The notes beneath the pieces are model-generated. The model was not told the origin of the DNA. It did no database searches and saw only the letters and a list, made by a program, of their open reading frames with translations. Positions 11,886 through 28,150 of a stretch of DNA of 64,000 nucleotides are shown here, piece after piece. Origin of the DNA: Gammaproteobacteria bacterium (GTDB taxonomy: Bacteria; Pseudomonadota; Gammaproteobacteria; Burkholderiales; Rhodocyclaceae); NCBI GenBank assembly GCA_029289235.1, contig JARFTZ010000039.1, forward strand, positions 1-64,000, given 5' to 3'. A program made the translations under genes and the position numbers. Numbering within the stretch: position 1 is the stretch's first letter; every line of letters begins with the position of its first letter.

Positions 11886-12386
11886 ATGCTTGCTCTACGC
11901 GTTTCGTTGTGGCTGTTCGCCGCTTTGTTTCCGCCCGCCGTCGCTGCGTCGGACGAGAAGGTCGAAATCCGGGAATTCACGACGGATGGATGCAGCCGCT
12001 TCCCCGACCATTCGCTCATCTCGAACGATGACTGGTGCCATTGCTGCGTTGCCCACGACCTCGCCTACTGGCGCGGAGGCACCGCGGCAGAGCGTCGCGC
12101 AGCCGACGAAAAGCTGCGCGACTGCGTCGAAAAAACCACCCGCAATCGCGCCCTGGCCGACGTAATGTTCGCTGGCGTGCGCGCGGGTGGCGGCCCGTAC
12201 TTCTTCACGAGCTATCGCTGGGGCTACGGCTGGAAGTACGGACGCAACTACCGGCCGCTGTCACCTGCGGAGCGGGCTGTGGCCGACATGATGCAGGCCG
12301 GGTACCTGGCGACGAACCCGGGGTTGTCGTGTTCGCCTGGTCAGCCTGAGGTGGGCGAGGAGGCAGCGCGGGCTGTCGCGGAATAG
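11886..12386 (+). CDS. Secreted protein with a phospholipase-A2-like Cys-Cys-x-x-His-Asp motif
   Basis: Protein of 166 residues with a clear signal peptide ending near AVAASD (residue 21). The segment CHCCVAHDLAYW (51-62) resembles the catalytic CCxxHDxCY motif of phospholipase A2, with His57 and Asp58 as candidate catalytic dyad; a later LRDC could supply the second-helix cysteine. The remainder includes an aromatic stretch (SYRWGYGWKYGRNYRP). Assignment to PLA2 rests only on this motif, and the calcium loop is not obvious. Its 3' end overlaps the convergent nasA by 46 bases. Confidence 0.6.
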   Translation: MLALRVSLWLFAALFPPAVAASDEKVEIREFTTDGCSRFPDHSLISNDDWCHCCVAHDLAYWRGGTAAERRAADEKLRDCVEKTTRNRALADVMFAGVRAGGGPYFFTSYRWGYGWKYGRNYRPLSPAERAVADMMQAGYLATNPGLSCSPGQPEVGEEAARAVAE

Positions 12387-15193
12387 GGCGTCGCGCCGCT
12401 TGCCGCGATCAGCCTCCGGACCTCCGTCAGGCACGATCCGCACGACGTGCCGCATTTGAGCTTTTCCTGGATCTCGGGCAGCGCCTTGCCCTGGCGGACT
12501 TCCGCCTCGATCGCGGCGGCGCTCACGTCGAAGCAGTTGCAGACGACCCGGCGCGGCGTGGCGGTTGCGGTTGGCGGTGTGGCGCGGGGAGCGAAGATCC
12601 AGCGGCGCAGTTCGTCGATGGCGATGCCGTCGCGCAGCGCCGCGCGCAGCCAGCCGATACCCGCGTCTTCCCCGGCGAGCAGGATGCCGGTCAGGCGGCC
12701 ATTCTCGACGATGGCGCGCTTGGTGATGTGGCGGGCGCTGTCGCGGTAGTTGAGGCTGGCGGATTCGGAAAGCGCCAGCGCGACGGCGATGCGCTCGATG
12801 CGTTCGTCGTCCAGCGGTTCCCTGGTGGCGACGCGCAGGGCAACGAACGGGCGGTCGCGGCCGTCGAGCGTCAGCGCGGCGTAGGCTCCGGTCTCCAATC
12901 CGGCCAGCAGAGGTTCGAGGGCGGCCCGCCAGCGCTGCACCTGTTCGTCGGCGCCGAGTCCGCCGCCCGGCGAGCGCAAAATGGCGAGCCGCCACGGCAA
13001 ATCGGCCGGCTCGATGCGCACGGCGGCGTGCTTGAGTTCCGGCTGTTTCGACACGGGGTCGAAGGCGGGGAGCGTCAGCGCGTTGACGCCATCGTGGGCG
13101 AGCGTGCGCCGCCCCCAGTGCATGGCGACAAAGGCTTGCCCGGGGCGTACGTCGTCGCTGGCGGCAAGCGGGAGAACGATTTCGCCGCGCCGGCTGCGAA
13201 GGTTCATCAGCGTGCCTTCGCGCCAGCCGCGCCGCGCCATGTCGGCCGGATGCAGGCGGACAGCGGGCTCCGGTTCGTGCGCATAGAGGCGCGGGACGCG
13301 CCCGGTGCGGCTCATGCCGTGCCACTGGTCGCGCAGGCGACCGGTGACGAGACGGAAGGGATGGCGGGCGTCGGGCGACTCGGCGGTCAGGCCCGTGGCG
13401 ACGGGGATGAAGCGTGCCTTGCCGTCGTCGAAGGCGAAGCGGTGGTCGATGAACAGGCGCGCCTCGCCGGTTTTTGCGCCGGCCGGGAACGGCCACTGTT
13501 GGGGGCCGAGGCGGTCGAGCGCGGCGTGCGACAGGCCGCCGATGTCGAGGTCGCGGCCGAGGGTGGTGGCGACGTGCTCGGCGTAGACCTCGGCGGGGGT
13601 GGTGAAGGGGAAGAGGGTTTCGGCCGTCATTCCGGTGGAGGCTGGAATTGAGGCTTCCGGGGCTTTTCCTGGATCCCGGCTTTCGCCGGGATGACGGGGT
13701 TCTGTTAGGCGTGCGCTCAGGGCGAGCGCGAAATCCCGCGCGATACGCCAGTCGGCGCGGGCTTCGCCGGGAGGCGGGACGGCGGCGCGGACGCGGCTGA
13801 TGCGGCGTTCGGAGTTGGTCACCGTGCCGTCCTTCTCGCCCCAGGTGGCGGCGGGCAGCAGGAGGTCGGCGAAGGCGGCGGTTTCGGTGTCGGCCCAGGC
13901 GTCCTGGACGACTACGAATTCGGCGGTCTGCAGCGCTTCGCGCACACGGGCGAGGTCGGGCAAGGATTGGGCCGGGTTGGTGCAGGCGATCCAGATTGCT
14001 TTGATGCTGCCGTCGCGTACGGCGTCGAACATTTCGACGGCGGTCTTGCCGGGCCGTTCGGGCAGCGCGGGGATGCCCCACAGCGCGGCGAGTTCGGCGC
14101 GGTCGGCGGCGTCGAGGAGGTTGCGGTGGCCGGGGAGCAGGTTGGCCATCGCGCCGGCCTCGCGCCCGCCCATTGCGTTGGGCTGGCCGGTCAGCGAGAA
14201 GGGGCCCATGCCGGGCTTGCCGATGGTGCCGGTGGCGAGGTGAAGGTGGATCAGCGCGGCGCCGTTGGCCGTGCCGTGGGTCGACTGGTTGAGTCCCTGG
14301 CACCAGAACGAGAGCGGCGCTTTGGCCTGGCCGAACCAGCGCGCGGCGGTGACGATGTCGTCGGCCTTCACCCCGCAGACGGGGGCGACGGTGCCCGGCG
14401 TCAACTCGGCGAGTTGCTTGCGCAGGTCGGCGAAGCCGGTGGTGTGTTCGGCGATGAAGTTGTCATCGATCATGCCTTCCCACAGCAGCACGTGCAGCAT
14501 CGCCGAGTAGAGCAGCACGTCGCTGCCCGGCGTGATCGCCAGGTGCAGGTCGGCGTCCGCCGCGGTGTCGGTGCGGCGCGGGTCGACGACGATCAGCTTG
14601 AGGTCTGGATTGGCCGCGCGCGCGGCTTCGATGCGGCGGTAGACGATCGGGTGGGCGAAGGCCGGGTTGGCACCGGCGATCAGGATCAGGTCGGCGAGGT
14701 CGATGTCTTCGTAGCTGCACGGCACGGCATCGGAGCCGAGTGTGGCCTTGTAGGCGGCCACCGCCGAGGACATGCACAGGCGCGAGTTGGAGTCGATGTT
14801 GTTCGTGCCGACCAGCGCGCGCGCCAGCTTGTTGAAGACGTAGTAGTCCTCGGTCAACAACTGGCCGGAGATGTAGAAGCCGACGGCGTCCGGGCCGTGC
14901 TCGTGGATGATCGCGGCGAAACGTTCGGCGGCGGTGGCGAGGGCGTGATCCCAGGTGGCGGGTTTTCTCGGTGCGTCCCGTGATTCACGCAGCATCGGCA
15001 CGGTGGCGCGCCCCGTTTGGACGGCGGCGAGGTGCAGCGTGTTGCCCTTGGTGCACAGCTTGCCGAAGTTGGCCGGGTGCTCCGGGTCGCCTTCGACGCC
15101 GACAATGCGATTGCCGGCCGAATGGATGATCACGCCGCAGCCGGTGCCGCAGTAGCAACAGGTGCTGCGGGTGTGCCGCAGGCCGGGGTTCAT
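12341..15193 (-). CDS. nasA: Assimilatory nitrate reductase catalytic subunit NasA
   Basis: Cytoplasmic Mo-bis-MGD enzyme reducing nitrate to nitrite, 950 residues. The N-terminal [4Fe-4S] motif CCYCGTGCG (C12, C15, C19) and a fourth Cys in GKLCTKGN are present. The C-terminus carries a fused BFD-like [2Fe-2S] domain (VCNCFDVS ... CGTSCGSC), as in several proteobacterial NasA proteins. Residues around 500-524 are encoded by a palindromic repeat inserted in frame (13623-13697). The start ATG 15193 overlaps the nirD stop (TGATG); upstream in-frame ATGs lie within nirD. It is the last gene of the nas operon. Confidence 0.95.
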   Translation of the reverse strand: MNPGLRHTRSTCCYCGTGCGVIIHSAGNRIVGVEGDPEHPANFGKLCTKGNTLHLAAVQTGRATVPMLRESRDAPRKPATWDHALATAAERFAAIIHEHGPDAVGFYISGQLLTEDYYVFNKLARALVGTNNIDSNSRLCMSSAVAAYKATLGSDAVPCSYEDIDLADLILIAGANPAFAHPIVYRRIEAARAANPDLKLIVVDPRRTDTAADADLHLAITPGSDVLLYSAMLHVLLWEGMIDDNFIAEHTTGFADLRKQLAELTPGTVAPVCGVKADDIVTAARWFGQAKAPLSFWCQGLNQSTHGTANGAALIHLHLATGTIGKPGMGPFSLTGQPNAMGGREAGAMANLLPGHRNLLDAADRAELAALWGIPALPERPGKTAVEMFDAVRDGSIKAIWIACTNPAQSLPDLARVREALQTAEFVVVQDAWADTETAAFADLLLPAATWGEKDGTVTNSERRISRVRAAVPPPGEARADWRIARDFALALSARLTEPRHPGESRDPGKAPEASIPASTGMTAETLFPFTTPAEVYAEHVATTLGRDLDIGGLSHAALDRLGPQQWPFPAGAKTGEARLFIDHRFAFDDGKARFIPVATGLTAESPDARHPFRLVTGRLRDQWHGMSRTGRVPRLYAHEPEPAVRLHPADMARRGWREGTLMNLRSRRGEIVLPLAASDDVRPGQAFVAMHWGRRTLAHDGVNALTLPAFDPVSKQPELKHAAVRIEPADLPWRLAILRSPGGGLGADEQVQRWRAALEPLLAGLETGAYAALTLDGRDRPFVALRVATREPLDDERIERIAVALALSESASLNYRDSARHITKRAIVENGRLTGILLAGEDAGIGWLRAALRDGIAIDELRRWIFAPRATPPTATATPRRVVCNCFDVSAAAIEAEVRQGKALPEIQEKLKCGTSCGSCLTEVRRLIAASGATPYSATARAASSPTSG
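13623..13697 (-). repeat. Palindromic dispersed repeat inside nasA (in frame)
   Basis: A 75-base copy of the GTCATTCCGGC-type element. One arm, 13669-13697, is perfect; the other, 13623-13651, is degenerate. Its length is exactly 25 codons, so the reading frame of nasA is kept. The translated text starts RHPGESRDPG, a hallmark of such repeats when they fall in coding sequence. It sits between two domains of the enzyme rather than in a catalytic motif. Confidence 0.88.
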
Positions 15194-15501
15194 CAGAGAG
15201 CGATCCATACGTCGTCCCCGACGCGTTTGACCGAGAACGGCGGCGTGCAGCCGACGTCGGGTGCGATCGCCTCGCCGCTCTGGAGATCGATCTTCCAGCC
15301 ATGCAGCGGGCACGTTACGATTTTTCCCGAGACGATCCCCTGCGACAATGGCCCGCCCTTGTGCGGGCACTTGTCGTGTACCGCGAAGACTTCATCGTCA
15401 GCCAGACGGAAGATGGCGATGTCGCCGTGTGCCGATTCGATGACGCGGCTGCCGAGGCGCGGGATTTCGTCGAGGGGGCAGAGTTTTTTCCAGTCGCTCA
15501 T
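15193..15501 (-). CDS. nirD: Nitrite reductase small subunit NirD (Rieske type)
   Basis: Small subunit of NADH-dependent assimilatory nitrite reductase, 102 residues. It has the Rieske fold with CPHKGG and CPLHGW; in NirD proteins these sites may or may not bind a [2Fe-2S] cluster, but all four ligands (two Cys, two His) are present here. It stands between nirB and nasA, with a TGATG overlap to nasA. A palindromic repeat occupies the gap to nirB. Confidence 0.95.
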   Translation of the reverse strand: MSDWKKLCPLDEIPRLGSRVIESAHGDIAIFRLADDEVFAVHDKCPHKGGPLSQGIVSGKIVTCPLHGWKIDLQSGEAIAPDVGCTPPFSVKRVGDDVWIAL

Positions 15502-15634: not shown

Positions 15635-18094
15635 TCATGGATTGACCTCCAGCTTTTCGTATTCGCGGCGGACAGCCGGTTTCTGCACCGCCGCGTTCCA
15701 CGGGTCTTCGTAGTTCTGCAGGGCATAGAGCAGGGCTTCGTACAGTTCCTTGCGGCGTGCTGCGTCGTCGAGGACGATCCTTTTCACATGATCGAGGCCG
15801 ACGCGGCTGACGTAGTGGCAGGTGCGTTCCAGGTAGAAGCCCTCCTCGCGGTACAGCTGCAGGAAGGCGCCGGCGTATTCGAGCACTTCGTCGTCGGTCG
15901 CCACCTTGCACAGGAACTGCGCCACCTCGGTCTTGATGCCGCCGTTGCCGGCGACGTAGATTTCATACCCCGAATCGACGCCGATCACGCCGACGTCCTT
16001 GATGCCGGCTTCGGCGCAGTTGCGCGGGCAGCCGGAGACGGCGAGCTTGACCTTGTGCGGCGACCACATGCCGAACAGCATCTTCTCCAGCTTGACGCCC
16101 ATACTCATCGACAACTGCGTGCCGAAGCGGCAGTGCTCCGCGCCGACGCAGGTCTTCACGGTGCGGATCGACTTGCCGTAGGCATGGCCGGAGACCATGC
16201 CTACGGCGCCCAGATCGGCCCACACCTTGGGCAGGTCGGCCTTCTTGATGCCGAGCAGGTCGACGCGCGCGCCGCCGGTCATCTTTACGGTCGGCACGTT
16301 GTATTTTTCGGCAACGTCGGCGATCACGCGCAGCTCCTTCGGGCTGGTGAGGCCGCCCCACATGCGCGGCACGACCGAGAAGGTGCCGTCCTTCTGGATG
16401 TTGGCGTGGGCACGCTCGTTGATGAAGCGCGACTGCGGGTCGTCCTGCGCCTCGTGCGGCCAGGTCGAGATCAGGTAGTAGTTGAGCGCCGGGCGGCACG
16501 AGGCGCAGCCGTTCGGCGTTTTCCAATCGAGAAAGCTCATCACCTCGGGAATGGTCAGCAGGTGCTGTTCGCGGATCGCCGCGCGCACTTCGCCGTGCGA
16601 ATGGTCGGTGCAGCCGCACACCGGCTTGTCCTTGCTCTGCACCGGCTGGTAGGCGCCGCCGACGGTCGAGGCGAGGATCTGTTCGACGAGGCCGGTGCAG
16701 GAGCCACACGAGGACGAGGCCTTGGTGTGCTTGCGCACGTCATCGACGGTGAATAGCCCCTTCTCCTTGATCGCCTTGACGATGGTGCCCTTGCACACGC
16801 CGTTGCAGCCGCACACTTCGGCCGTGTCGGGCATCGCGGCCGCCTTGCTTTGCCCCTGGTGCCCGACATCGCCGACGTGATTCTGGCCGAACATCAGATG
16901 GTCGCGCAGTTCGGCGATGTTCTGCTTGTCCTTGAGCAACTGGAAGTACCAGGCGCCGTCGGCCGTGTCGCCGTAGAGCACCGCGCCGACGAGCTTGTCG
17001 CCCTCGATGACGAGCCGTTTGTATACGCCGCCGGACGGGTCGGAGAGGACGATGTCCTCGGTCTTCTCTCCACCGGCGAAGTTGCCGGCCGAGAAGACGT
17101 CGATGCCGGTGACCTTGAGCTTGGTCGAAGTCACCGAACCCTGGTAGCGGCTGATGCCGAAGCGGGCGAGGTGGTTGGCGCAGACCTTGGCCTGCTCGAA
17201 CAGCGGCGCGACCAAGCCGTACGCCGTGCCGCGGTGCGCGGCGCATTCGCCGACGGCGTAGATCTTCGGGTCGTAGGTCTGCAGCGTGTCGTTGACCACG
17301 ATGCCGCTGTTTTTGCCAACCCCGCAGTGGATGCCGGCCGATTCAGCGAGCGTGGTGTTCGGGCGGATACCGACGGCCATGACCACGAGATCGGCCGGGA
17401 TCGCTTCGCCGTTCTTGAAGCGGATCAGCGCGACGCGCCCGGATTCGCCTGCAACCAACTCGGCCGTCTGCTTGCCGAGCAGGAACTTCAGACCCTTGGC
17501 TTCTAGCGATTTCTGCAACAGGTCGGCAGCAGTCTTGTCGAGCTGGCGCTCCATGATCCATTCGCCGAGATGCACCACGGTTACGTCCATGCCGCGCAGG
17601 CGCAGGCCGTTGGCCGCTTCCAGGCCGAGCAGGCCGGCGCCGACGACGACAGCGTGGGTATGCGTCTTCGCTGCCTCGATCATCGCCTCGGTGTCGGCGA
17701 TGTCGCGGTAGGCGATCACGCCCGGCAGGTCCTTGCCCGGCACCGGCAGGATGAACGGCGAGGAGCCTGTGGCCAGCAGCAGGCGGTCGTACTCCGCTTC
17801 GGTGCCGTCCTCGGCAAGCACGCGGCGGTGGATGCGGTCGATCCGGGTGACCTTCTTGCCGGCGTGCAGGGTAATGCCGTTGTTTTTGTACCAGGCGTGG
17901 TCGTTGAGCACGATGTCCGGCAGCGTCATCTCGCCAGCCAGCACCGGCGAGAGCAGGATGCGGTTGTAGTTCGGATGCGGTTCGGCGCCGAACACGGTGA
18001 TGTCGTACAGGTCCGGTTCGAGCTTGAGCAGCTCTTCCAGGGTGCGGCAGCCGGCCATGCCGTTGCCGATCATCACGAGTTTTTGCTTGGTCAT
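15635..18094 (-). CDS. nirB: Nitrite reductase [NAD(P)H] large subunit NirB
   Basis: Reduces nitrite to ammonium using NAD(P)H, siroheme and FAD, 819 residues. In order: FAD/NAD disulfide-oxidoreductase domain with GNGMAGCR at the N-terminus; two BFD-like [2Fe-2S] modules (CGCNGVCKG ... CGSC and CGCTDHSHGE ... CASC); then the ferredoxin-like half-domain and the siroheme/[4Fe-4S] site (TCVGAEHCRFG ... SGCPRNCAEAG). ATG 18094 is preceded by GAGGGA; a longer frame to 18127 lies partly in a repeat and is unlikely. Together with NirD it completes nitrate assimilation to ammonium. Confidence 0.96.
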   Translation of the reverse strand: MTKQKLVMIGNGMAGCRTLEELLKLEPDLYDITVFGAEPHPNYNRILLSPVLAGEMTLPDIVLNDHAWYKNNGITLHAGKKVTRIDRIHRRVLAEDGTEAEYDRLLLATGSSPFILPVPGKDLPGVIAYRDIADTEAMIEAAKTHTHAVVVGAGLLGLEAANGLRLRGMDVTVVHLGEWIMERQLDKTAADLLQKSLEAKGLKFLLGKQTAELVAGESGRVALIRFKNGEAIPADLVVMAVGIRPNTTLAESAGIHCGVGKNSGIVVNDTLQTYDPKIYAVGECAAHRGTAYGLVAPLFEQAKVCANHLARFGISRYQGSVTSTKLKVTGIDVFSAGNFAGGEKTEDIVLSDPSGGVYKRLVIEGDKLVGAVLYGDTADGAWYFQLLKDKQNIAELRDHLMFGQNHVGDVGHQGQSKAAAMPDTAEVCGCNGVCKGTIVKAIKEKGLFTVDDVRKHTKASSSCGSCTGLVEQILASTVGGAYQPVQSKDKPVCGCTDHSHGEVRAAIREQHLLTIPEVMSFLDWKTPNGCASCRPALNYYLISTWPHEAQDDPQSRFINERAHANIQKDGTFSVVPRMWGGLTSPKELRVIADVAEKYNVPTVKMTGGARVDLLGIKKADLPKVWADLGAVGMVSGHAYGKSIRTVKTCVGAEHCRFGTQLSMSMGVKLEKMLFGMWSPHKVKLAVSGCPRNCAEAGIKDVGVIGVDSGYEIYVAGNGGIKTEVAQFLCKVATDDEVLEYAGAFLQLYREEGFYLERTCHYVSRVGLDHVKRIVLDDAARRKELYEALLYALQNYEDPWNAAVQKPAVRREYEKLEVNP

Positions 18095-18120
18095 GTTGCG
18101 TCCCTCATTAGCCTGTTTCT

Positions 18121-18194
18121 CCGTCATCCCGGCGGAAGCCGGGATCCAGTGCGTGCTCCGAAATCCTGGATTCCGGCTTTCGCCGGAATGACGG
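18121..18194. repeat. Palindromic dispersed repeat between nrtD and nirB
   Basis: Arms 18121-18149 and 18166-18194 are inverted copies of the GTCATNCCGGC-type unit. The element occupies most of the 120-base gap between the nrtD stop (18215) and the nirB start (18094). Confidence 0.9.
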
Positions 18195-18214
18195 TTTTCA
18201 ATTCACTTCTCGTC

Positions 18215-19009
18215 CTATGCCGCCAGCGGATGCTGCTGCTTGGCGTAAAGGAACTCGATCACCTTCGAGCGGCAATCCATGTACTTCGCGTCGTGCGCCA
18301 GTTCGAGGCGCTGGCGCGGGCGTGGCAGGTCGACCGAGAGGACTTCGCCGATCGTTGCCGCCGGACCGTTGGTCATCATCACGATGCGGTCGGAGAGCAG
18401 CACGGCCTCGTCGACGTCGTGGGTGACCATCACCGTCGTCGCCTGTGTCTTGGTGCAGATGGCCATCAGTTCGTCCTGCAGGCGGGCGCGGGTCAGCGCG
18501 TCGAGCGCGCCGAAGGGCTCGTCCATCAGCAGCACCTTGGGTTCCATGGCCAGCGCGCGGGCGATGCCGACGCGCTGCTTCATGCCGCCTGAAATCTCGC
18601 CGGGATACTTGTGCATGGCATGCGCCAGGCCGACCATTTCCAGAACGGCTTGTGTGCGCGCCTTGAGTTCGGCCTTGCCTTCGTTCCTGCCGAAGACGCG
18701 TTCGACGGCGAGCATGACGTTGTCGAAGCAGGTCAGCCAGGGCAGCAGCGAGTGGTTCTGGAAGACGACCGCGCGTTCCGGTCCGGGGCCGGGGATCTCG
18801 CGGCCGGCGCAGATCAGCGCGCCGGTCGTCGGCAGCGTCAGGCCGGCGATCAGGTTGAGCAGCGTCGATTTTCCACAACCCGAGTGGCCGATCAGCGAGA
18901 CGAATTCGCCTTGGCGGATGTTGAGGTTGATGTCGCGCAGAGCGACGAACTTGCCCTTCTTTGTATCGAAGGTCATGCCGGCGTTTTCAATACTGACATA
19001 GCGTTCCAT
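18215..19009 (-). CDS. nrtD: Nitrate ABC transporter ATP-binding protein
   Basis: ATPase of the nitrate/nitrite ABC importer, 264 residues. Walker A GHSGCGKST, the ABC signature SGGMKQR and Walker B VLLMDEPFGALD are present, with the NrtD/SsuB/TauB-type Q-loop text FQNHSLLPWLT. ATG 19009 is two bases after the nrtB stop. Unlike cyanobacterial NrtC it lacks a fused binding-protein domain. It sits in the nas operon between nrtB and nirB. Confidence 0.93.
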   Translation of the reverse strand: MERYVSIENAGMTFDTKKGKFVALRDINLNIRQGEFVSLIGHSGCGKSTLLNLIAGLTLPTTGALICAGREIPGPGPERAVVFQNHSLLPWLTCFDNVMLAVERVFGRNEGKAELKARTQAVLEMVGLAHAMHKYPGEISGGMKQRVGIARALAMEPKVLLMDEPFGALDALTRARLQDELMAICTKTQATTVMVTHDVDEAVLLSDRIVMMTNGPAATIGEVLSVDLPRPRQRLELAHDAKYMDCRSKVIEFLYAKQQHPLAA

Positions 19010-19011
19010 GA

Positions 19012-19923
19012 TCAGCCCTCCGTGTGCAGGCGCTTGGCAAGCAGCAGCAAGGCTTGCTCGAGGATTAGTCCGACGATGCCGATCACGAAGATGGCGATGA
19101 TGATGTGCTCGACCTTGAGGTTGTTCCATTCGTCCCACACCCAGAAACCGATGCCGACACCGCCAGTGAGCATTTCCGCGGCGACGATGACCAGCCAGGC
19201 GGTACCAATCGACAGGCGGATGCCGGTGAGCATGTACGGCAGCACGCTGGGGAAGAGGATCCTGGTGACGATCTTCCACTCGGAGAGGTTGAGCACGCGC
19301 GCCACGTTGAGGTAGTCCTGCGGCACGCGCTGCACGCCTTGTGCGGTATTCATGATCATCGGCCAGATCGAGCAGATGAAGATGGTCCAGGTCGCCGCCG
19401 GGTCGGCGCGCTTGAACACCAGGAGGCCGATCGGCAGCCAGGCCAGCGGCGAGACCGGGCGCAGCAGGCTGATCAGCGGATTGACCAGGCTGGAGAGCAG
19501 GGCAAAGCGCCCGAGCAGGAAGCCGGCGGGAATGCCGACCAGCGCGGCGAAGCCGAATCCGATGCCGACGCGTTCGAGCGAGGCGAGGATGTTCCAGCCG
19601 ATACCCTGATCGTTCGGGCCGTTGCTGTAGAACGGGTCAGCGAACAGCTTGGCCGCCGCCTCCCATGTCTTCGCCGGCGACGGAATTGTGGCACCAGCAG
19701 CGCCGCCCTTCATCGTCGCAACATGCCAGATGCCGATCAGCAGCAGCACGCCGAGGATCGGCGGCAGGACCGCGGCGAAGAAGGCGCGCATCGCCGCCGC
19801 ATGTTCGGTGGCGCTGCTCGGCGCGGCGGCGATTTCAAGTTGCTTCGCCGTCGGCCGCGTCAGGCGCAGACTCGCCTCGTTCGTCGGGACGTTCGGCATG
19901 GCGTCTATCGTGATGGCCGTCAT
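19012..19923 (-). CDS. nrtB: Nitrate ABC transporter permease NrtB
   Basis: Membrane subunit of the nitrate importer, 303 residues, with a hydrophilic N-terminal stretch of about 55 residues followed by six or so membrane segments. The family region around IPAGFLLGR and SIGTAWLVIVAAEML matches NrtB/SsuC-type permeases. I preferred ATG 19923, which has AAGGAAA upstream, over ATG 19953 or 19947, which would lack a ribosome site. It is followed two bases later by nrtD. Confidence 0.93.
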   Translation of the reverse strand: MTAITIDAMPNVPTNEASLRLTRPTAKQLEIAAAPSSATEHAAAMRAFFAAVLPPILGVLLLIGIWHVATMKGGAAGATIPSPAKTWEAAAKLFADPFYSNGPNDQGIGWNILASLERVGIGFGFAALVGIPAGFLLGRFALLSSLVNPLISLLRPVSPLAWLPIGLLVFKRADPAATWTIFICSIWPMIMNTAQGVQRVPQDYLNVARVLNLSEWKIVTRILFPSVLPYMLTGIRLSIGTAWLVIVAAEMLTGGVGIGFWVWDEWNNLKVEHIIIAIFVIGIVGLILEQALLLLAKRLHTEG

Positions 19924-19960
19924 GGGAGTTTCCTTGTATCGATTCATCTTCATTGAGGTT

Positions 19961-20044: not shown

Positions 20045-21322
20045 TTAGCCCTTGACCTTGAAGCCGTCGGCGTACGCCTTCGGGTCTTTCGCGTTCCAGA
20101 CGACGCCGTCGATCAGCTTCGATTCGCGCAGCTCGTTCTTCGGGATCGGCGCCTTGACCTGCGCGGCGGCTTCCTTGTACAGCGCGATCTGGTTGACCTT
20201 CTTCGCCACGGCGAGGTAGTCCGGGTGATCCTTGAGCAGCCCCCAGCGCTTGTGCTGGGTCATGAACCACATGCCGTCGGAGAGGTAGGGGAAATTCACC
20301 GCGCCGTCGTTGTAGAACTTCATGAAGTTCTTCTCCGACCAGCTCTTGCCCAGGCCGTTTTCGTACTGACCGATCATGCGGCTGCGGATCACGTCGACGT
20401 CGGTATTGACGTAGGCCTTGGCGGCGATCGTCTCGGCGGTCTTGCTGCGATTGGCGGCCGAAGCGTCGATCCACATCGAGGCTTCGAGCACGGCCATGAT
20501 GATCGCGCGCGCCGTGTTTGGATACTTCTGCACGAAGTCGGCGGTGGTGCCGAGCACCTTCTCCGGATGATCGACCCACACGTCCTGCGAGGTGGCGGCG
20601 GTAAAGCCGATCTTGTCGATGATCGCGCGCTGGTTCCACGGCTCGCCGACGCAGCAGCCGTCCATGTTGCCGATGCGCATGTTGGCGACCATCTGCGGCG
20701 GCGGCACGACGATGCTCTTCACATCCTTGACCGGATTGATGCCGTAGGTCGCCAGCCAGTAGTAGAGCCACATGGCGTGCGTGCCGGTGGGAAAGGTCTG
20801 CGCGAAGGTGTAGTCGCGTTCCTTCTTCGCGACCAGGGCGGCCAGCGTCGGCCCGTCGGTGACGCCCTTGTCCTTCAGCTGGTTGGAGAGAGTGATGCCC
20901 TGGCCGTTGTTGTTGATGGTCATCAGCGAGGCCATGTCCTTCTTCGGCCCGCCGATGCCGAGCTGCACGCCGTAGATCAGGCCGTACAGCACGTGCGCCG
21001 CGTCGAGCTCGCCGTTGACCAGCTTGTCGCGCACGCCGGCCCAGGAAGCCTCCTTGGTTGGTGTGATCCTGATCCCGTGCTTCTTGTCGAAGCCCATCAC
21101 CGAGGCCATGACGACCGAGGCGCAGTCGGTCAGCGGGATGAAGCCGATGCGGACTTCTTCCTTTTCCGGTTTGTCGGACCCCGCGGCCCAGGCTGCCGAG
21201 CGGACTCCGGGGGCGATGCCGCTCATGAGCGCGGCTCCCGTGGCAAGTTGCAGGCTTCGGCGCAGGAAGTCGCGCCGATCCGTTTCTGCGGCGAGTGGTT
21301 TGGCTGTGGTTTCATGGGTCAT
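20045..21322 (-). CDS. nrtA: Nitrate-binding protein NrtA (Tat-exported)
   Basis: Periplasmic binding protein of the nitrate/nitrite ABC importer, 425 residues. A twin-arginine signal is visible (RRDFLRRSLQLATG), ending near AAWAAGSD. The body matches the NrtA/NasS family: IGFIPLTDCASVVMA, GYGI-like ligand-loop text and DGCCVGEPWN. ATG 21322 is the first start after a leader terminator; GGAG precedes it. NasS, the cytosolic partner of NasT, is a homologue of NrtA; the Tat signal here argues for the transport protein. It heads the nas operon. Confidence 0.94.
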   Translation of the reverse strand: MTHETTAKPLAAETDRRDFLRRSLQLATGAALMSGIAPGVRSAAWAAGSDKPEKEEVRIGFIPLTDCASVVMASVMGFDKKHGIRITPTKEASWAGVRDKLVNGELDAAHVLYGLIYGVQLGIGGPKKDMASLMTINNNGQGITLSNQLKDKGVTDGPTLAALVAKKERDYTFAQTFPTGTHAMWLYYWLATYGINPVKDVKSIVVPPPQMVANMRIGNMDGCCVGEPWNQRAIIDKIGFTAATSQDVWVDHPEKVLGTTADFVQKYPNTARAIIMAVLEASMWIDASAANRSKTAETIAAKAYVNTDVDVIRSRMIGQYENGLGKSWSEKNFMKFYNDGAVNFPYLSDGMWFMTQHKRWGLLKDHPDYLAVAKKVNQIALYKEAAAQVKAPIPKNELRESKLIDGVVWNAKDPKAYADGFKVKG

Positions 21323-21341: not shown

Positions 21342-21395
21342 TAAAAAAACGGCGTCCGATTCCTGCCGGGGGGATTGCAGGAATCAGACGCCGTT
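21342..21395 (-). terminator. Leader terminator (attenuator) of the nas operon
   Basis: Read on the minus strand, 19-base arms at 21395-21377 and 21366-21348 pair with a single T-G wobble around a loop of about ten bases, then a run of seven T follows. This is a textbook intrinsic terminator. It ends about 20 bases before the nrtA start codon and after the expected promoter, so it must be overcome for the operon to be expressed. Its placement is that of ANTAR-controlled nas leaders. Confidence 0.9.
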
Positions 21396-21403
21396 GTCGG
21401 TGA

Positions 21404-21453
21404 GTCGGGCCGCCGTTGGCTCGACACTTGGCTATCAATTAGCAGTAAGCGTG
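21404..21453 (-). promoter_or_regulatory. Tandem hairpins P1-P2, candidate ANTAR (NasT) binding site
   Basis: On the minus strand P2 (21425-21404) forms GTCG-a-GCC / GGC-c-CGAC around the hexaloop AACGGC, with A at position 1 and G at position 4. Just before it, P1 (about 21453-21425) forms GCTA/TAGC around ATTGA, also with A1 and G4 but one base short of a hexaloop, on a lower stem with bulges. ANTAR proteins are known to bind two adjacent hairpins with A1/G4 hexaloops. The 7-mer AACGGCG occurs both in P2 and in the terminator's 5' arm, so alternative pairing is possible. Confidence 0.7.
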
Positions 21454-21764
21454 CCTGTTGCTGCCCGTATTGGGGTTCTTGTTTTAATTCAGCATGTTGC
21501 AGGTGTCTTGATGTGCGTTCCGGCATTTTGTGGCGGTTGCGTGGCGCACAGCTTGGGGGCGGTCGGTCGGTTTTTCGCCCAATCACGGGGCAGTGGAGTG
21601 AAGCCTGGCGACATGCTTGGCGTGGCTGGACAGTCTGCGATTTTTCAGCGCGGCTGCCGATGCTTTTGACTATTCTTAACGGGTAAGTGTCGGTCACGCC
21701 GGCGGTTGGACGGAAGTGCGTCGTTTGTGTGTGCCCTGCTTTTATCCATGAGGAGTCGCAGCCT

Positions 21765-22892
21765 ATGTCCGGTCAACGTGGAGCCTGTTCCCTTTTCCTG
21801 TGTGCCGCGGCCGTGGTCCTGGCGGCTTGCGAGGAGCCGGCGCCGCCGGTGCCTGTGGTGCCGGAGGTTGTCGTGGAAACCCTGAGCGGACGCACGACGC
21901 CGCTGACGGCTGACGTCGTCGCCGAGGTCAAGGCCTATCGCGAGGTCGATATCTATTCGCGCATCACCGGGCAGTCGTTCAAGCAGGCGTTCAAGCCGGG
22001 ACAGATGGTCAAGGAAGGCGACCTCTTGTTCAGCATCGACCCGCGCGCCTATGACGAGGCGGTCATCGACGCCCAGGCCAGGCTGGCCGAGTCCGAGGCG
22101 GTGCTGGCGCGTGCGCGGCAGGACGTGGCGCGCTACAAGCCGCTGTTGCCGGACAACGCGATCCCCCGGCAGACCTACGACCAGGCCGTGGCGTCGGAAC
22201 AGCAGAACGCGGCCGTCGTGCAGGCGCGGCGCGCCGGGCTGGAGCGGGCGCGGCTCGATCGCTCGTACGCCGAGGTGCGTTCGCCGATCTCCGGGCAGAT
22301 CGGCCTGCAGAAGCTCGAAGTCGGCGCCCTGGCCACGGCCGGGCAGACCGTGCTGGCGACCGTGTCGACGCTCGACCCGGTGGTGGCTTATTTCAGCATC
22401 CCGGAAGTCGACTACATCAATCTGGCCAGGCGCTTCATGCAGGACAAGAAGGAAGGCGAAGCAAAGAGCCCGATCGAGCTGATCCTCGCCGATGGTTCGG
22501 TCTATGGCGAAGCCGGCCAGATCGATTTTGCCGATCGGGCGCTGAATGCGGCGACGGGTACGCTGACCCTGCGCGCCGTCTTCCCCAATCCGTCCGGACT
22601 GCTCCGCCCCGGCATGAATACGCGCGTGCGCATCGTCTACGAAGTTGCGCAGGACGCATTGCTGATCCCGCAGAAGGCGGTGACCGAGTTGCTCGGCAAG
22701 CAGTTCGTCGCTGTTGTCGGCGAGGGCGACAAGGTCGAGCAGCGGCCGATCACGACCGGGGCGAGGCTCGGCGAACTGTGGCTGGTGCGAAGCGGTCTCA
22801 AGGCCGGCGAGCGCATCGTCGTCGAGGGCGTGCAGAAGGCGCAGGCCGGGGTGGTGGTCAAACCCGTGGCAAGTCCGGCTGGCAAGCCGTAG
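21765..22892 (+). CDS. RND efflux periplasmic adaptor (membrane fusion lipoprotein)
   Basis: Membrane fusion protein of 375 residues of the AcrA/MexA type. A lipoprotein signal is visible (AAAVVLAAC), so it should be lipid-anchored. It has a beta-barrel and lipoyl region (FKPGQMVKEGDLLFSIDPR), a coiled-coil hairpin (about residues 95-165) and the second lipoyl half (SYAEVRSPISGQIG). ATG 21765 has AGGAG upstream; the frame is open to 21687 but those residues precede the signal. It heads a three-gene efflux operon; the pump gene starts nine bases after its stop. Confidence 0.93.
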   Translation: MSGQRGACSLFLCAAAVVLAACEEPAPPVPVVPEVVVETLSGRTTPLTADVVAEVKAYREVDIYSRITGQSFKQAFKPGQMVKEGDLLFSIDPRAYDEAVIDAQARLAESEAVLARARQDVARYKPLLPDNAIPRQTYDQAVASEQQNAAVVQARRAGLERARLDRSYAEVRSPISGQIGLQKLEVGALATAGQTVLATVSTLDPVVAYFSIPEVDYINLARRFMQDKKEGEAKSPIELILADGSVYGEAGQIDFADRALNAATGTLTLRAVFPNPSGLLRPGMNTRVRIVYEVAQDALLIPQKAVTELLGKQFVAVVGEGDKVEQRPITTGARLGELWLVRSGLKAGERIVVEGVQKAQAGVVVKPVASPAGKP

Positions 22893-22901
22893 GAGCCGGC
22901 T

Positions 22902-25900
22902 ATGGCCAGATTCTTCATCTTCCGCCCGGTCTTCGCGATCGTCACCGCGATCGTCCTGACGCTGGCCGGCATCATCGCCGGAATCAACCTGCCGATCGCG
23001 CAGTATCCGCAGATCACCCTGCCGACCATCCGCGTCAGTGCCGTCTATCCCGGCGCCAGCGCGGAAGTCGTCGAGCAGGCCGTCGCCCAGCCGATCGAGG
23101 AGCAGGTCAACGGCGTCGAGGGCATGCTGTACATGACCTCGAGTTCGTCCGGCAACGGCGGCTACAACCTCGACGTCACCTTCGGTCTGGAAGACAACGC
23201 CGACATCGCCGCCGTGCAGGTGCAGAACCGGGCCTCGCAGGCCAACGCCCGCCTGCCGTCGGAGGCGATCAGCGCCGGCATCACCACCAAGAAGCAGACG
23301 CCCGACGTGCTGATGTACCTGGCGCTCGTCTCGCCCAAGGGCACCTACGACGAACTGTTCCTGGCCAACTACGCGACGATCAACGTGGTCGAAGCGCTCA
23401 AGCGGATCAAGGGCGTCGGCAACGTCAGCCTGTTCGGCGCGGAGTTCGGCATGCGCCTGTGGCTGCGGCCCGACCGCATGGCCAGCCTGGGCGTGACGCC
23501 GACCGACATCTACCGCGCCATCCAGGAACAGAACGCGCAGGCGCCGGCCGGGCAGGTCGGGCAGATGCCGGCGCCGAAGACGCAGCAGTTCCAGTACGGC
23601 GTCGAGGTGCGCGGACGTTTGTCGGAGGTCAGCGAGTTCGAGGAGGTGATCATCCGCGCGCAGAAAGACGGCTCGTTCATTCGTGTGCGCGACGTGGCGC
23701 GCGTCGAGCTGGGCGCCAAGGATTATGTCTTCCAGTCGCGGCTCAACGGCCAGCCGGCAGCGGCTTTCTCGATCAACCTGACGCCGGACGCCAGCGCGCT
23801 GGAAACGGCGGCGCTGATCAACGCCGAGCTGAAATCGCTGTCGGCATCATTCCCGACTGACCTGACCTACGACGTGGTGCTCGACAACACGGTCTTCGTC
23901 CAGGCCTCGCTGACGGAAGTCGTCCACACCTTCTTCGAGGCGCTGGCGCTGGTGCTGATCGTCGTCTTCCTCTTCCTGCAGAACTGGCGGGCGACACTGA
24001 TTCCGATGCTCGCCGTGCCGGTGTCGCTGGTTGGCACCTTCGCCGCCTTCACCCTGCTGGGCTTCACGATCAACACGCTGACGCTGTTCGGCATGGTGCT
24101 GGCCATCGGCATCGTTGTTGACGACGCCATCGTCGTCGTCGAGGCGGTCGAGCATCACATGGAACACAGCCACCTGAACGCGCGCGATGCGACGATTCGC
24201 GCGATGGAAGAAGTATCCGGCCCGGTCGTCGCCATGACGCTGATCCTCGCCGCCGTGTTTGTGCCGGTCGCCTTTCTCGGCGGCATCTCCGGCGTCATGT
24301 ACAAGCAGTTCGCCATCACCGTGGCGACGTCGACGGCGCTCTCCGGCTTCGTCGCCTTGTCGCTGACCCCGGCGCTGTGCGCACTGATCCTGAAACCCCG
24401 CGAAGCCGGCCGGGGTGGATGGGTCCGGCGCTTCTTCGATGCCTTCAACCGCGTGTTCGAGCGACTGACGGCAGGCTACGGCCGCAGAGTCCAGGCGATG
24501 ATCCGCCGCACGCTGCTCTCGCTGATGCTGCTCGGCATCCTCATCCTGGCCGCCTTCGGCCTGATGAACAATGTGCCGGGCGGCTTCGTGCCGGCCGAGG
24601 ATCAGGGCTATTTCCTCGGCAGCGTGCAGCTGCCGGCCGCCGCGTCGCTCAACCGCACGGCAGAACTGTCGGCGAAGGTCGATGACATCCTGAAGAGCTA
24701 TCCGGCCGTGGAGAAACGGTTGATCATCAACGGCTACAACATTCTCAACGGCGCGCCGCAGTCCGACAGCGCCCTGTTCGTGACGACACTGAAGCCGTGG
24801 CAGGAACGAACGGCAGACGCCGATTCGCTGCGCTCCATCCTCCTGGGCACCTACCAGCAGGCGGCGAAGCTGCCGGGGGCCGTGGTCATGGCCTTCAATC
24901 CGCCGCCGATTCCCGGCCTGGGCTCGACCGGCGGCTTCTCGTTCAAGCTGCAGGCACGCGCCGGCGGCACGCCGCAGGAACTGGCCAAGGTGGCCGACGA
25001 CTTCATGGCCGAGGCACGCAAACGACCGGAGATCGGTAGCATCTACTCGAAGTTCAATCCACGCACACCGGCGTTCCGGCTGGAAGTCGACCGCGAGAAG
25101 GCCAAGAAGATGGGCGTGCCGATCTCCGACATCACCAACGCGCTGCAGACCTTCCTCGGCGGACTCAACGTCAACGATTTCAGCCGCTTCGGGCGCAGCT
25201 ACAAGGTCACCATGCAGGCCGAGCCCGAGTACCGCAGCGACATCCAGCAGGTCGGCCTGATCCACGTGCGCAACGGCGACAACCAGATGATCCCGCTGTC
25301 GACGCTGGTGACGCCGGTATCCACGAGCGCGCCGACCGTGCTCGAGCGCTACAACCTGTATCGCACGGCCGAACTCGGCGGCAATCCCGGCGCCGGTTTC
25401 AGCTCGGGTGACGCCATCGCGGCGATGGAGCAGGTGGCGGCGACGGCCCTGCCGCCGGGCTACGGCTTCGAGTGGTCGGGCATCAGCCGGCAGGAGAAGG
25501 AATCCGCCGGCAAGGCACCGGTCGTTTTCGGTCTGGCGATCGTTTTCGTTTTCCTCTTTCTCGCCGCGCTGTACGAGAGCTGGGCGGTGCCGTTCGCCGT
25601 GCTTCTGGCGGTGCCGCTCGGCGTGTTCGGCGCCATGCTCGGCCTCTGGCTGACCGGGCTGAACAATAACATCTACGCGCAGATCGGGCTGGTGCTGCTG
25701 ATCGGACTGGCGGCGAAAAACGCGATCCTGATCGTCGAGTTCGCCAAGATGAAGCTCGAACAGGGCGAAGACGCCGTTTCCGCGGCGGTGGGCGCGGCCA
25801 AGCTGCGCCTGCGCCCGATCATCATGACCTCGTTCGCCTTCATCCTCGGCGTTGTGCCGCTGATCATCGCCTCGGGGGCTGGCGCCGCCGCGCGTGTCTC

Positions 25901-26042
25901 GATGGGCATCACGGTATTCGGCGGCATGCTGGCGGCGACGCTGCTGGCGATCTTCATGGTGCCGGTGCTGTTCGTCACCGTCGATCGCGTCGTCAGTCGC
26001 TTCTCGCGAGGGAAGTCGAGCCGGAAGGGGGTTGAAGCATGA
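22902..26042 (+). CDS. RND multidrug efflux permease (AcrB/MexB type, HAE1)
   Basis: Inner-membrane proton-driven pump of 1046 residues, the usual length for HAE1. The N-terminus MARFFIFRPVFA and the first periplasmic text (SAVYPGASAEVVEQ) are typical. The proton-relay residues are present: the Asp-Asp pair in GIVVDDAIVVVE of TM4 and the Lys in AAKNAILIVEFAK of TM10. It overlaps the outer-membrane gene by four bases (ATGA). The substrate range cannot be told from sequence. No TetR or LysR regulator is adjacent. Confidence 0.96.
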   Translation: MARFFIFRPVFAIVTAIVLTLAGIIAGINLPIAQYPQITLPTIRVSAVYPGASAEVVEQAVAQPIEEQVNGVEGMLYMTSSSSGNGGYNLDVTFGLEDNADIAAVQVQNRASQANARLPSEAISAGITTKKQTPDVLMYLALVSPKGTYDELFLANYATINVVEALKRIKGVGNVSLFGAEFGMRLWLRPDRMASLGVTPTDIYRAIQEQNAQAPAGQVGQMPAPKTQQFQYGVEVRGRLSEVSEFEEVIIRAQKDGSFIRVRDVARVELGAKDYVFQSRLNGQPAAAFSINLTPDASALETAALINAELKSLSASFPTDLTYDVVLDNTVFVQASLTEVVHTFFEALALVLIVVFLFLQNWRATLIPMLAVPVSLVGTFAAFTLLGFTINTLTLFGMVLAIGIVVDDAIVVVEAVEHHMEHSHLNARDATIRAMEEVSGPVVAMTLILAAVFVPVAFLGGISGVMYKQFAITVATSTALSGFVALSLTPALCALILKPREAGRGGWVRRFFDAFNRVFERLTAGYGRRVQAMIRRTLLSLMLLGILILAAFGLMNNVPGGFVPAEDQGYFLGSVQLPAAASLNRTAELSAKVDDILKSYPAVEKRLIINGYNILNGAPQSDSALFVTTLKPWQERTADADSLRSILLGTYQQAAKLPGAVVMAFNPPPIPGLGSTGGFSFKLQARAGGTPQELAKVADDFMAEARKRPEIGSIYSKFNPRTPAFRLEVDREKAKKMGVPISDITNALQTFLGGLNVNDFSRFGRSYKVTMQAEPEYRSDIQQVGLIHVRNGDNQMIPLSTLVTPVSTSAPTVLERYNLYRTAELGGNPGAGFSSGDAIAAMEQVAATALPPGYGFEWSGISRQEKESAGKAPVVFGLAIVFVFLFLAALYESWAVPFAVLLAVPLGVFGAMLGLWLTGLNNNIYAQIGLVLLIGLAAKNAILIVEFAKMKLEQGEDAVSAAVGAAKLRLRPIIMTSFAFILGVVPLIIASGAGAAARVSMGITVFGGMLAATLLAIFMVPVLFVTVDRVVSRFSRGKSSRKGVEA

Positions 26043-27439
26043 TCGCGCGCCGTATTGCCATACCGCTGCTCGGCGCGTTGCTGGCCGGTTGTGCCGTCGG
26101 CCCGGACTATCGCCGGCCGGAAGTCGATCTGCCTGGCCGCTTTGCCGGTGTGGCGGACGGAGAAGCGGACGGCAAGACAGATGCGGTCTCGCTGGCCAGC
26201 CATAACTGGCGCGAGGTTTTCACCGATCCGGCGTTGCAGCAACTGATCGACGAGGCGCTGACCGCCGGGCCGGATGCGCTGCTTGCCGCCGCGCGCATCC
26301 GCGAGGCCGAGGCGCTGGCTGGCGTCAGCCGGGCGCCATTCTACCCACAGGCGTCGGTGTCGCTGAACACCTCGCCGACCGTTCGCCAGGCCGGCGACAG
26401 CCAGACCTCCAGCTATCTCGGCGGTGCCGGCATTTCCTGGGAAATCGACCTGTGGGGGCGTTATCGCCGGGCCAGTGAAGCGGCGCGTGCCGATCTGCTG
26501 GCCAGCGAGGAGGCCCGCTACGGCATGCAGGCCTCGCTCGTCGCCGGCGTTGCCCGTTACTACTTCCAGCTGGCGACGCTGCACGACATCTACCGCATCA
26601 CCGAGCGCGGCGCGAACAATCAGGCCGAGGTCCTGCGCCTGGTCCGGCGCCTTTCCGCGGCCGGCATCTCCACCGCGGCCGAGGAGCGCCAGCAGGAAAG
26701 CGCACTGGCGACGACGGAGGCGAGCCTGCCGACACTGCGCCGACAGATCGCCGAAACCGGGAATGCGCTGGCCGTGCTGATCGGGCGCCATCCTGGGGCG
26801 TTGCCGGTGGACACGCCGCCGGTGCTGAACCTGCCCGGCCAGATTCCCGCGGGACTGCCCTCCAGCCTGCTCGAACAGCGGCCGGATATCCGCCAGGCGG
26901 AAGCGCGACTGGTAGCCGCCAACGCGCGTGTCGGCGAAGCCAAGGCGATGTTCTTCCCGAGCCTGTCGCTGACCGCCTTCTTCGGCGGCATCAGCACCAG
27001 TCTCTCGGATGTCATCAAGGGCCGCGCGCCCGACGTCGTTTCGGTCGGCCCGAACCTGCTGCTGCCGCTGTTTGCCGGCGGACAACTCTACTTCAATCTC
27101 GAAGCCGCGCAGGCCCGGCTCGATCAGGCGGTGATCAGCTATCGCAAGACCTTCCTGAACGCGCTTGGCGAAGTGGCGAACGGACTCGTCGCCTACGAGA
27201 CCAGCCACGACCTGATGGCCAAACAGGCCGCCCGCGTCGCTGCGTCACGCGAAGCCATGCGCCTGGCCGAACTGCGCTTCCGCGCCGGGACGGCCAACTT
27301 CATCGAAGTGCTCGACGCGCAGCGCCAGTTGCTGGCCGCCGAGACGGAGGAGGCGCAGGCGCTGCTGGAGCGGCGTCTGGCGCTGGTGAATATTTATCTT
27401 GCGTTGGGGGGCGGGTGGCAAGCTGCGCTGCGCTATTGA
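26039..27439 (+). CDS. Outer-membrane efflux lipoprotein (OprM/NodT family)
   Basis: TolC-like channel of 466 residues completing the tripartite pump. A lipoprotein signal (GALLAGCAVGPDYRRP) gives the usual NodT-family N-terminus. Two repeated outer-membrane-efflux domains can be seen, the second beginning near LLEQRPDIRQAEA. ATG 26039 overlaps the pump stop. The stop codon lies within copy B of the 138-bp repeat, so the last one or two codons may have been set by repeat insertion; the final residues WQAALRY look normal. Confidence 0.95.
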   Translation: MIARRIAIPLLGALLAGCAVGPDYRRPEVDLPGRFAGVADGEADGKTDAVSLASHNWREVFTDPALQQLIDEALTAGPDALLAAARIREAEALAGVSRAPFYPQASVSLNTSPTVRQAGDSQTSSYLGGAGISWEIDLWGRYRRASEAARADLLASEEARYGMQASLVAGVARYYFQLATLHDIYRITERGANNQAEVLRLVRRLSAAGISTAAEERQQESALATTEASLPTLRRQIAETGNALAVLIGRHPGALPVDTPPVLNLPGQIPAGLPSSLLEQRPDIRQAEARLVAANARVGEAKAMFFPSLSLTAFFGGISTSLSDVIKGRAPDVVSVGPNLLLPLFAGGQLYFNLEAAQARLDQAVISYRKTFLNALGEVANGLVAYETSHDLMAKQAARVAASREAMRLAELRFRAGTANFIEVLDAQRQLLAAETEEAQALLERRLALVNIYLALGGGWQAALRY

Positions 27440-27574: not shown

Positions 27575-28150
27575 CTATAAAAGCACGTCCGCCATGTCGA
27601 CCAGGTTCCCCGCGACCTTGGCCAGCGGTTGCGAGCGTTCCATGGCCAGTTTCCTGAGCGTTGCGTAGGCGGTTTCCTCGTCGATGCTGCGTGTTTTCAT
27701 CAGGATGCCCTTGGCTTTCTCGATGATTTTCCGTTCGCTGAGCTTGCGGCTGGTCTCCGCCAGTTCCTGGCGCAAGGCCTGGTGTTCCTCGAAGTGGGCG
27801 ATGGCGACGTCGACGACCGGCTTCAGGCGGTCGATGTCGAAGCCGTCGACGACATAGGCCGCGACACCGGAGCGGATGGCCGAGCGGATGGTGGTCTGGT
27901 CGCTGTCCTGCGAGAACATGATCACCGGGCGCGGCATGTCCCGGTTCATCACCGCCAGGTGCTCGAGCGTGTCGCGCGACGGCGATTCGGTCTCGATCAG
28001 GATGATGTCGGGCCGGATTTCCTGGATGCGTTCGGCGAGCTCCAGTGACGACGGCAACACCGCGGCGACCTGATGCCCGGCCTGGATCAGCCCGGTGCAG
28101 ATCTCCACGGCCCGTTGTTGCGATTCATCGATGACCAGTACGCTTGCCAT
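27575..28150 (-). CDS. nasT: ANTAR-domain antitermination regulator (NasT type)
   Basis: Protein of 191 residues with an N-terminal receiver-like domain and a C-terminal ANTAR RNA-binding domain (from about residue 125; RKIIEKAKGILMKTR is the hallmark stretch). Order and text match NasT, which lets polymerase pass the leader terminator of nas genes when nitrate or nitrite is present. The residue that would accept phosphate appears to be Glu (LIETESPSRD) rather than Asp, so control by phosphorylation is doubtful; NasT proteins are usually controlled by the NasS sensor, which is not seen here. ATG 28150 begins MASVLVIDES; a frame running to 28474 is not expected. Confidence 0.9.
   Translation of the reverse strand: MASVLVIDESQQRAVEICTGLIQAGHQVAAVLPSSLELAERIQEIRPDIILIETESPSRDTLEHLAVMNRDMPRPVIMFSQDSDQTTIRSAIRSGVAAYVVDGFDIDRLKPVVDVAIAHFEEHQALRQELAETSRKLSERKIIEKAKGILMKTRSIDEETAYATLRKLAMERSQPLAKVAGNLVDMADVLL

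Follow-up and report, generated by a model that had tools for sequence, protein, structure and literature searches.

A probable NasT-dependent antitermination leader in front of a nitrate-assimilation operon in the Rhodocyclaceae

An intrinsic terminator lies upstream of nrtA, the first gene of a putative nitrate-assimilation operon, in the 64,000-nucleotide stretch of Rhodocyclaceae DNA analysed here (the window). A sequence-only reading had placed a leader of two hairpins and a terminator in front of the operon. The leader is real, but its first hairpin had been misnamed, and the true second hairpin and the promoter had been missed. The leader is probably an on/off RNA switch of the operon, and a dual-hairpin target of a known kind for an ANTAR protein (NasT).

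Anatomy of the locus

The following features were assigned to the leader and to the genes behind it.

21441-21455, minus strand: sigma54-type -24/-12 promoter GGCACGCTTACTGCT, GG (21455/54)-N10-GC (21443/42)
21404-21425, minus strand: ANTAR hairpin P1, loop AACGGC (21417-21412), stem of 8 positions, one of them an A-C mismatch; -9.5 kcal/mol
21399-21403, minus strand: P1-P2 linker, 5 nt
21387-21398, minus strand: ANTAR hairpin P2, GAC-AACGGC-GTC, loop 21395-21390, overlapping the terminator 5' arm
21343-21395, minus strand: intrinsic terminator with a 19-bp stem and a T run, -34.9 kcal/mol, mutually exclusive with P2
20045-21322, minus strand: nrtA, nitrate-binding-protein-like (NMT1_2; PF13379, 348.5 bits), twin-arginine signal, first gene of the operon
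19012-19953, minus strand: permease gene, rest of the likely operon, start not refined
18215-19012, minus strand: ATPase gene, rest of the likely operon, start not refined
15635-18127, minus strand: nirB-like nitrite reductase gene, rest of the likely operon, start not refined
12341-15370, minus strand: gene for a molybdopterin nitrate-reductase-like protein, rest of the likely operon, start not refined

The start codon of nrtA, read directly on the minus strand, is the ATG at 21322, and the N-terminus of its product reads RRDFLRR. The four genes between 12341 and 19953 would be co-transcribed with nrtA as an operon. No NCBIfam family scored above cut-off for nrtA or for the regulator gene nasT described below. 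Words resembling HPGESRDP or HSGESRNP recur in the translations at 12341-15370 (minus strand) and near 15500, 18114-18198 and 19950, which suggests a palindromic repeat; one copy apparently lies in frame within the nitrate-reductase-like reading frame.

The 19-bp terminator with its seven T and nrtA downstream, as originally described, was recovered both in the sequence and by folding. Its stem pairs 21395-21377 with 21366-21348, including one U-G pair, and the first two of the seven T (21349-21343) are also in the stem. The minimum free energy z-score of the region was -6.0, with the terminator dominating. Both hexaloops of the leader, each AACGGC, carry the A1 and G4 of ANTAR targets. The hairpin with its loop at 21417-21412, which had been called the second, exists and is P1; P2 has three contiguous base pairs in the window and is weak alone (-0.7 kcal/mol). 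The 7-mer AACGGCG does occur twice, as had been pointed out, because the ANTAR recognition loop occurs twice, as in the published model (PMC3369931).

Conservation of the leader and its relation to RF03032

Rfam family RF03032 (narK RNA) matched the full length of the leader with 42.7 bits (E = 5e-5; Rfam scan of 30 kb), 0.5 bits short of the gathering score of 43.2 bits. The leader closely resembles RF03032 and is formally not over its cut-off. Matches to RAGATH-10 and Xoo8 in the 30-kb scan lay far under their gathering scores and were taken as chance, and a second RF03032 match in the same genome (G000:C14, 26.2 bits) failed the strict anatomy defined below. In the family, RF03032 matched at E<=0.1 in 74 of 150 genomes and above gathering in three (G127, G040 and G080). 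The Rfam structure line of RF03032 holds one hairpin only, and the hexaloop hairpin is common to RF03032 and the leader. Placed on the window (21455-21385), the model opens with an apparent promoter of sigma54 type, which is an element of the DNA, and closes within the second ANTAR hairpin or terminator arm: its first ~15 positions are the -24/-12 elements and its last positions the P2/terminator 5' arm. In the Rhodocyclaceae, RF03032 is a probable NasT/NasR antitermination leader plus its own sigma54 promoter. No mention of RF03032, narK RNA, narK motif or narK-1 RNA was found in the open-access papers searched, and none of the open-access papers listed tied narK RNA to ANTAR.

Strict anatomy (promoter GG, P1, P2 box and terminator) was applied to the 99 RF03032 matches in the 150 family genomes and was passed by 61 of them; the 38 dropped matches comprised 27 in ANTAR genomes and 11 in others. 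All 61 strict elements (57/57 genomes) lie in ANTAR-encoding genomes, as against 93/150 overall, and 47/61 have an ANTAR domain on their own strand at a distance of under 1 kb upstream. A looser set gave 65/66 elements and 57/58 genomes with ANTAR (hypergeometric p = 2e-15, phylogeny ignored), and its single exception, L079, fails strict anatomy. One element, L094, is counted among the 61 and was excluded from the analyses of 60 leaders, its P1 being misplaced. Loci L027 (G011), L052 and L089 show promoter-like and hexaloop-like features, fail the terminator criterion and resemble variant leaders; the tandem hexaloops of L027 are CGAC-AAAGAC-GTCG and GATC-AACGGC-GATC.

A promoter-free RNA model, R1, was trained on 36 leaders, the window's own included. 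It scored the leader at 51.5 bits (E = 4e-12, 64 kb), with a runner-up of 13.1 bits; in the order-wide search the window leader, also part of the training set, was the fourth best match. Among 300 genomes of the order R1 gave 48 matches at E<=1e-4 (five from the training set; one, L144, looks coding), of which 47 were in ANTAR genomes compared with 148/300 overall; the exception came from a genome 67% complete. In named genomes, an R1 match stood beside nasT in 7/9 nearest loci and in 12/80 loci at E<=0.05.

The sigma54 consensus is TGGCAC-N5-TTGC-like, with GG-N10-GC, and its -24/-12 position numbering is followed here. The candidate promoter AGGCACGCTTACTGC has both GG and GC and departs twice from this consensus: the T preceding GG is replaced by A, and the T preceding TGC by C. 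Transcription is predicted to start at ~21430. The promoter GG, imposed by the script, is present in 61/61 strict elements; at the -12 element G was found in 61/61 and C in 60/61, neither imposed by the script, both contained in RF03032. The P1 loop lies 36-38 nt past the first promoter G in 53/61 strict leaders, and across 60 sequences (L094 omitted) P1 pairing is conserved from ~+4 of the predicted start and at background level upstream. Being promoter-free, R1 offers a cleaner test of the promoter than the RF03032-based counts: GG-N10-G(C/T) occurred at the expected offset in 25/48 R1 matches (E<=1e-4) and in 5/22 weaker ones. A -24/-12 match, a pattern with no shuffle control, was present upstream of P2 in 55/63 inspected R1 loci, these being 70 loci minus seven excluded by eye as coding-like or with the anatomy absent (L144, L153, L159, L162-L164 and L173). 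An extra hairpin displaces the promoter further upstream in some order-wide leaders.

One sigma54 protein and one NtrC above the curated cut-off are encoded in the window's genome. Palindromes upstream of the promoter were scored against the NtrC site consensus, giving one weak candidate in the window:

21576-21592, minus strand: degenerate NtrC-site-like palindrome, 8/12 consensus positions, a score reached by ~55% of shuffles

NtrC-like palindromes with at least 10/12 positions were found in 26/61 family leaders versus 1.3% of shuffles, and 24 of these 26 precede the -24 G by 93-138 nt. The promoter is probably controlled by NtrC under nitrogen limitation.

Covariation in the relatives' leaders supported P1 (21425-21404), in which 7/8 pairs had changed on both sides among 36 leaders. 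Both helices together reached a covariation score of 0.473 compared with 0.214 when shuffled (36 leaders), and 93.6% of cells were paired, with slid controls reaching no more than 47.3%. The three inner pairs of P2 are near-invariant and hence gave no covariation signal; its fourth pair shows two-sided changes in 7/36 leaders and is unpaired in 10/36. The closing C-G and A1/G4 of P2, present in 61/61 leaders, were imposed by the search pattern, and the choice of P1 rewarded A1/G4, which makes the counts of loop features circular in part. In 45/60 leaders P1 and P2 carry different hexaloops; 34 leaders have a P2 loop other than AACGGC, only three of them with the same loop in P1.

Hairpin spacing tends to differ with the type of regulator, as assigned by hand (the receiver type was read in the sequence for 25/35 of the NasT class). 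The distance between the P1 and P2 loops is 27-64 nt in 12 leaders beside NIT-ANTAR (NasR-like) genes and 19-60 nt in 35 leaders beside other ANTAR genes (called NasT), 28/35 of the latter having 28 nt or less. The NasR-like spacing is longer (Mann-Whitney p = 1e-5; genus medians p = 7e-4; no tree correction), and a split at 33 nt is contradicted by two NasR and six NasT leaders. Linkers of more than 12 nt fold into a hairpin in 17/24 cases, nine of which beat 95% of shuffles. By eye, three tandem A1/G4 hexaloop hairpins, two of them before P2, were seen in ~15/63 inspected order-wide leaders. Such triple leaders, whose first hairpin is preceded by a -24/-12 element, occur in other families of the order (L108, L110, L112-L114, L118, L121, L139, L143 and others); in some, L150 and L172 among them, the loop of the middle hairpin is not of ANTAR type, and this hairpin looks like a spacer.

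The regulator gene and alternative readings

The regulator gene reported at 27575-28150 was confirmed by both of its domains, and it is separated from the leader by 6.1 kb containing an efflux operon, whereas for 47/61 strict family leaders the distance to an upstream ANTAR gene is under 1 kb.

27575-28150, minus strand: nasT, receiver-ANTAR regulator (PF03861, 65 bits; PF00072, 34.3 bits)
21687-27439, plus strand: tripartite RND efflux operon for a membrane fusion protein, an AcrB-like pump and an outer-membrane factor

No other ANTAR match was found in the window's genome (G000, 95% complete). The nasT reading frame is open and its product is 86% identical to that of a genome of the same genus (G141), where nasT stands beside its leader, with 166 bp from the end of the ANTAR domain to the element. 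This identity, together with the shared strand, suggests that the window's nasT still acts in trans. The closest named nasT (L184, 88%) belongs to Candidatus Accumulibacter sp. UBA704; the split between nasT and leader may be shared with it, since nrtA, an R1 match and RND genes were absent from the 3 kb downstream of that nasT.

A NasS-like PF13379 protein lacking an export signal was not found in the window's genome with the one profile used (genome 95% complete). Its single strong PF13379 match was the twin-arginine NrtA, the others scoring 29.6 and 23.6 bits. Such a nasT accompanied by no recognisable NasS was seen in 21/36 genomes with NasT-type leaders, the window's included; each of these 21 encodes just one PF13379 protein (E<=1e-40), and an RR signal is present in the protein encoded behind the leader. 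NasS-like genes with no visible RR signal lie beside nasT in a few genomes (L175, L176 and L177). Second PF13379 copies in L179 and L180 were rejected as NasS, as they carry RR signals and lack the NrtA/NasS motif used; in those of L182 and L183 this motif was not matched. The phospho-acceptor position of the NasT receiver is unconserved (among 25 matched sequences E in 12, D in 5, Q, H and N in 2 each, S and G in 1 each; the window has E), and this speaks against phosphorylation of NasT. NasT of this family might conceivably work with no NasS, the twin-arginine NrtA, folded in the cytoplasm before export, doubling as the nitrate sensor that holds NasT. We regard this as a rather unlikely proposal; if true, the receptor of the transporter would gate its own operon.

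Two other accounts of the leader were weighed against NasT-dependent antitermination. The anatomy first proposed took GCTA-ATTGA-TAGC as P1 and the AACGGC hairpin as P2, with the terminator 3' arm alternating between that P2 and its own 5' arm, and both hairpins and the repeated 7-mer are indeed present. The former hairpin (GCTAATTGATAGC, 21443-21431, -1.4 kcal/mol), however, has a 5-nt loop and falls at -13 to -1 of the conserved sigma54-type promoter, upstream of the predicted start, and is probably not transcribed. All four of its pairs recur with a 5-nt loop in 4/61 leaders, the window included, and with a 6-nt loop in 5/61, so that it forms no consistent hairpin in the relatives; it was rejected as an ANTAR hairpin on both position and conservation. 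Nor did the direct switch find support: among 60 leaders, the first loop and the terminator 3' arm matched in 348 pairs as against a shuffled mean of 351.5 (reached by 1862/2000 shuffles), which is an absence of covariation at low power, little loop variation limiting the test. Pairing of P2 with that arm gave 390 pairs versus 367.8 and was reached by 0/2000 shuffles, a figure inflated by placing the arm by its fit to P2, which does not affect the figure for the first loop; both sets of shuffles ignore relatedness. The 19-bp hairpin would also greatly outcompete a 7-bp pairing. The difference between the hexaloops in 45/60 leaders also counts against the switch. The version as a whole appears extremely improbable.

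The leader could instead have lost its response to NasT and act as a constitutive attenuator, nasT having been displaced and NasS being missing. The 6.1 kb and the RND operon between nasT and leader speak for this, as does the twin-arginine NrtA being the sole strong PF13379 protein, with no NasS found. The recognition features are nevertheless intact (R1 51.5 bits, from a model that the leader helped to train), nasT is open and close to the copy that stands beside its leader in G141, and nasT with no recognisable NasS is common in the family (21/36). Loss of response is accordingly considered very unlikely.

Proposed mechanism and comparison with known systems

Antitermination by an ANTAR protein before nrtA is strongly supported by the Rfam match, the conservation of the leader, the covariation of P1, the linkage to ANTAR genes and the terminator. 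It is very likely that NasT acts here by binding P1 and P2 on an RNA begun at the sigma54 promoter, P2 then excluding the terminator. RNA synthesis would start at ~21430 from this promoter, probably activated by NtrC under nitrogen limitation. With no active NasT, the 19-bp terminator would fold and RNA polymerase would halt before nrtA. Active NasT would bind P1 (21425-21404) and P2 (21398-21387), both of them A1/G4 hexaloop hairpins closed by C-G. Since the loop and 3' stem of P2 belong to the terminator 5' arm, a held P2 would block the terminator, and nrtA and the downstream nas genes would be transcribed.

This scheme follows the published dual-hairpin antiterminator of EutV, NasR and AmiR (PMC3369931). 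The common features are two A1/G4 hexaloop hairpins, a short linker (5 nt in the window; 5-12 nt in the E. faecalis eut leaders, PMC3369931), P2 within the terminator 5' arm and a nitrogen-related operon. The window differs from that model in having a sigma54-type promoter directly ahead, a receiver-ANTAR NasT and no recognisable NasS. The NasR SELEX motif likewise has a C-G closing pair and A1/G4 hexaloops (PMC3369931, PMC7496416). The nasF leader of K. oxytoca shares the tandem A1/G4 hexaloops, the C-G closing pair, the terminator and the nitrate assimilation operon (PMC7496416), as well as general nitrogen (Ntr) control (PMC5424462), which in the window would be exerted through the putative NtrC-activated promoter. 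Its regulator NasR carries a NIT sensor (PMC7496416), whereas that of the window is NasT-type, and a search of its genome for NIT proteins was negative. NasT itself binds the leader RNA of nas and nos genes in P. denitrificans and B. diazoefficiens, where NasS is the nitrate sensor (PMC3795266, PMC5424462, PMC6759348), in contrast to the window's genome, in which NasS was not found. The narK leader of B. diazoefficiens also has predicted NasT hairpins, and yet narK rises in a nasT mutant (PMC6759348); a hairpin alone is therefore no proof of NasT control.

The corrected anatomy redirects experiments to the two AACGGC loops instead of ATTGA, and to a transcript expected from ~21430. It raises the questions of how NasT would sense nitrate where NasS was not found and why hairpin spacing tends to differ between NasR and NasT. 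The Rfam family RF03032 (narK RNA) gains a probable function, the open-access papers searched having yielded no functional account of it.
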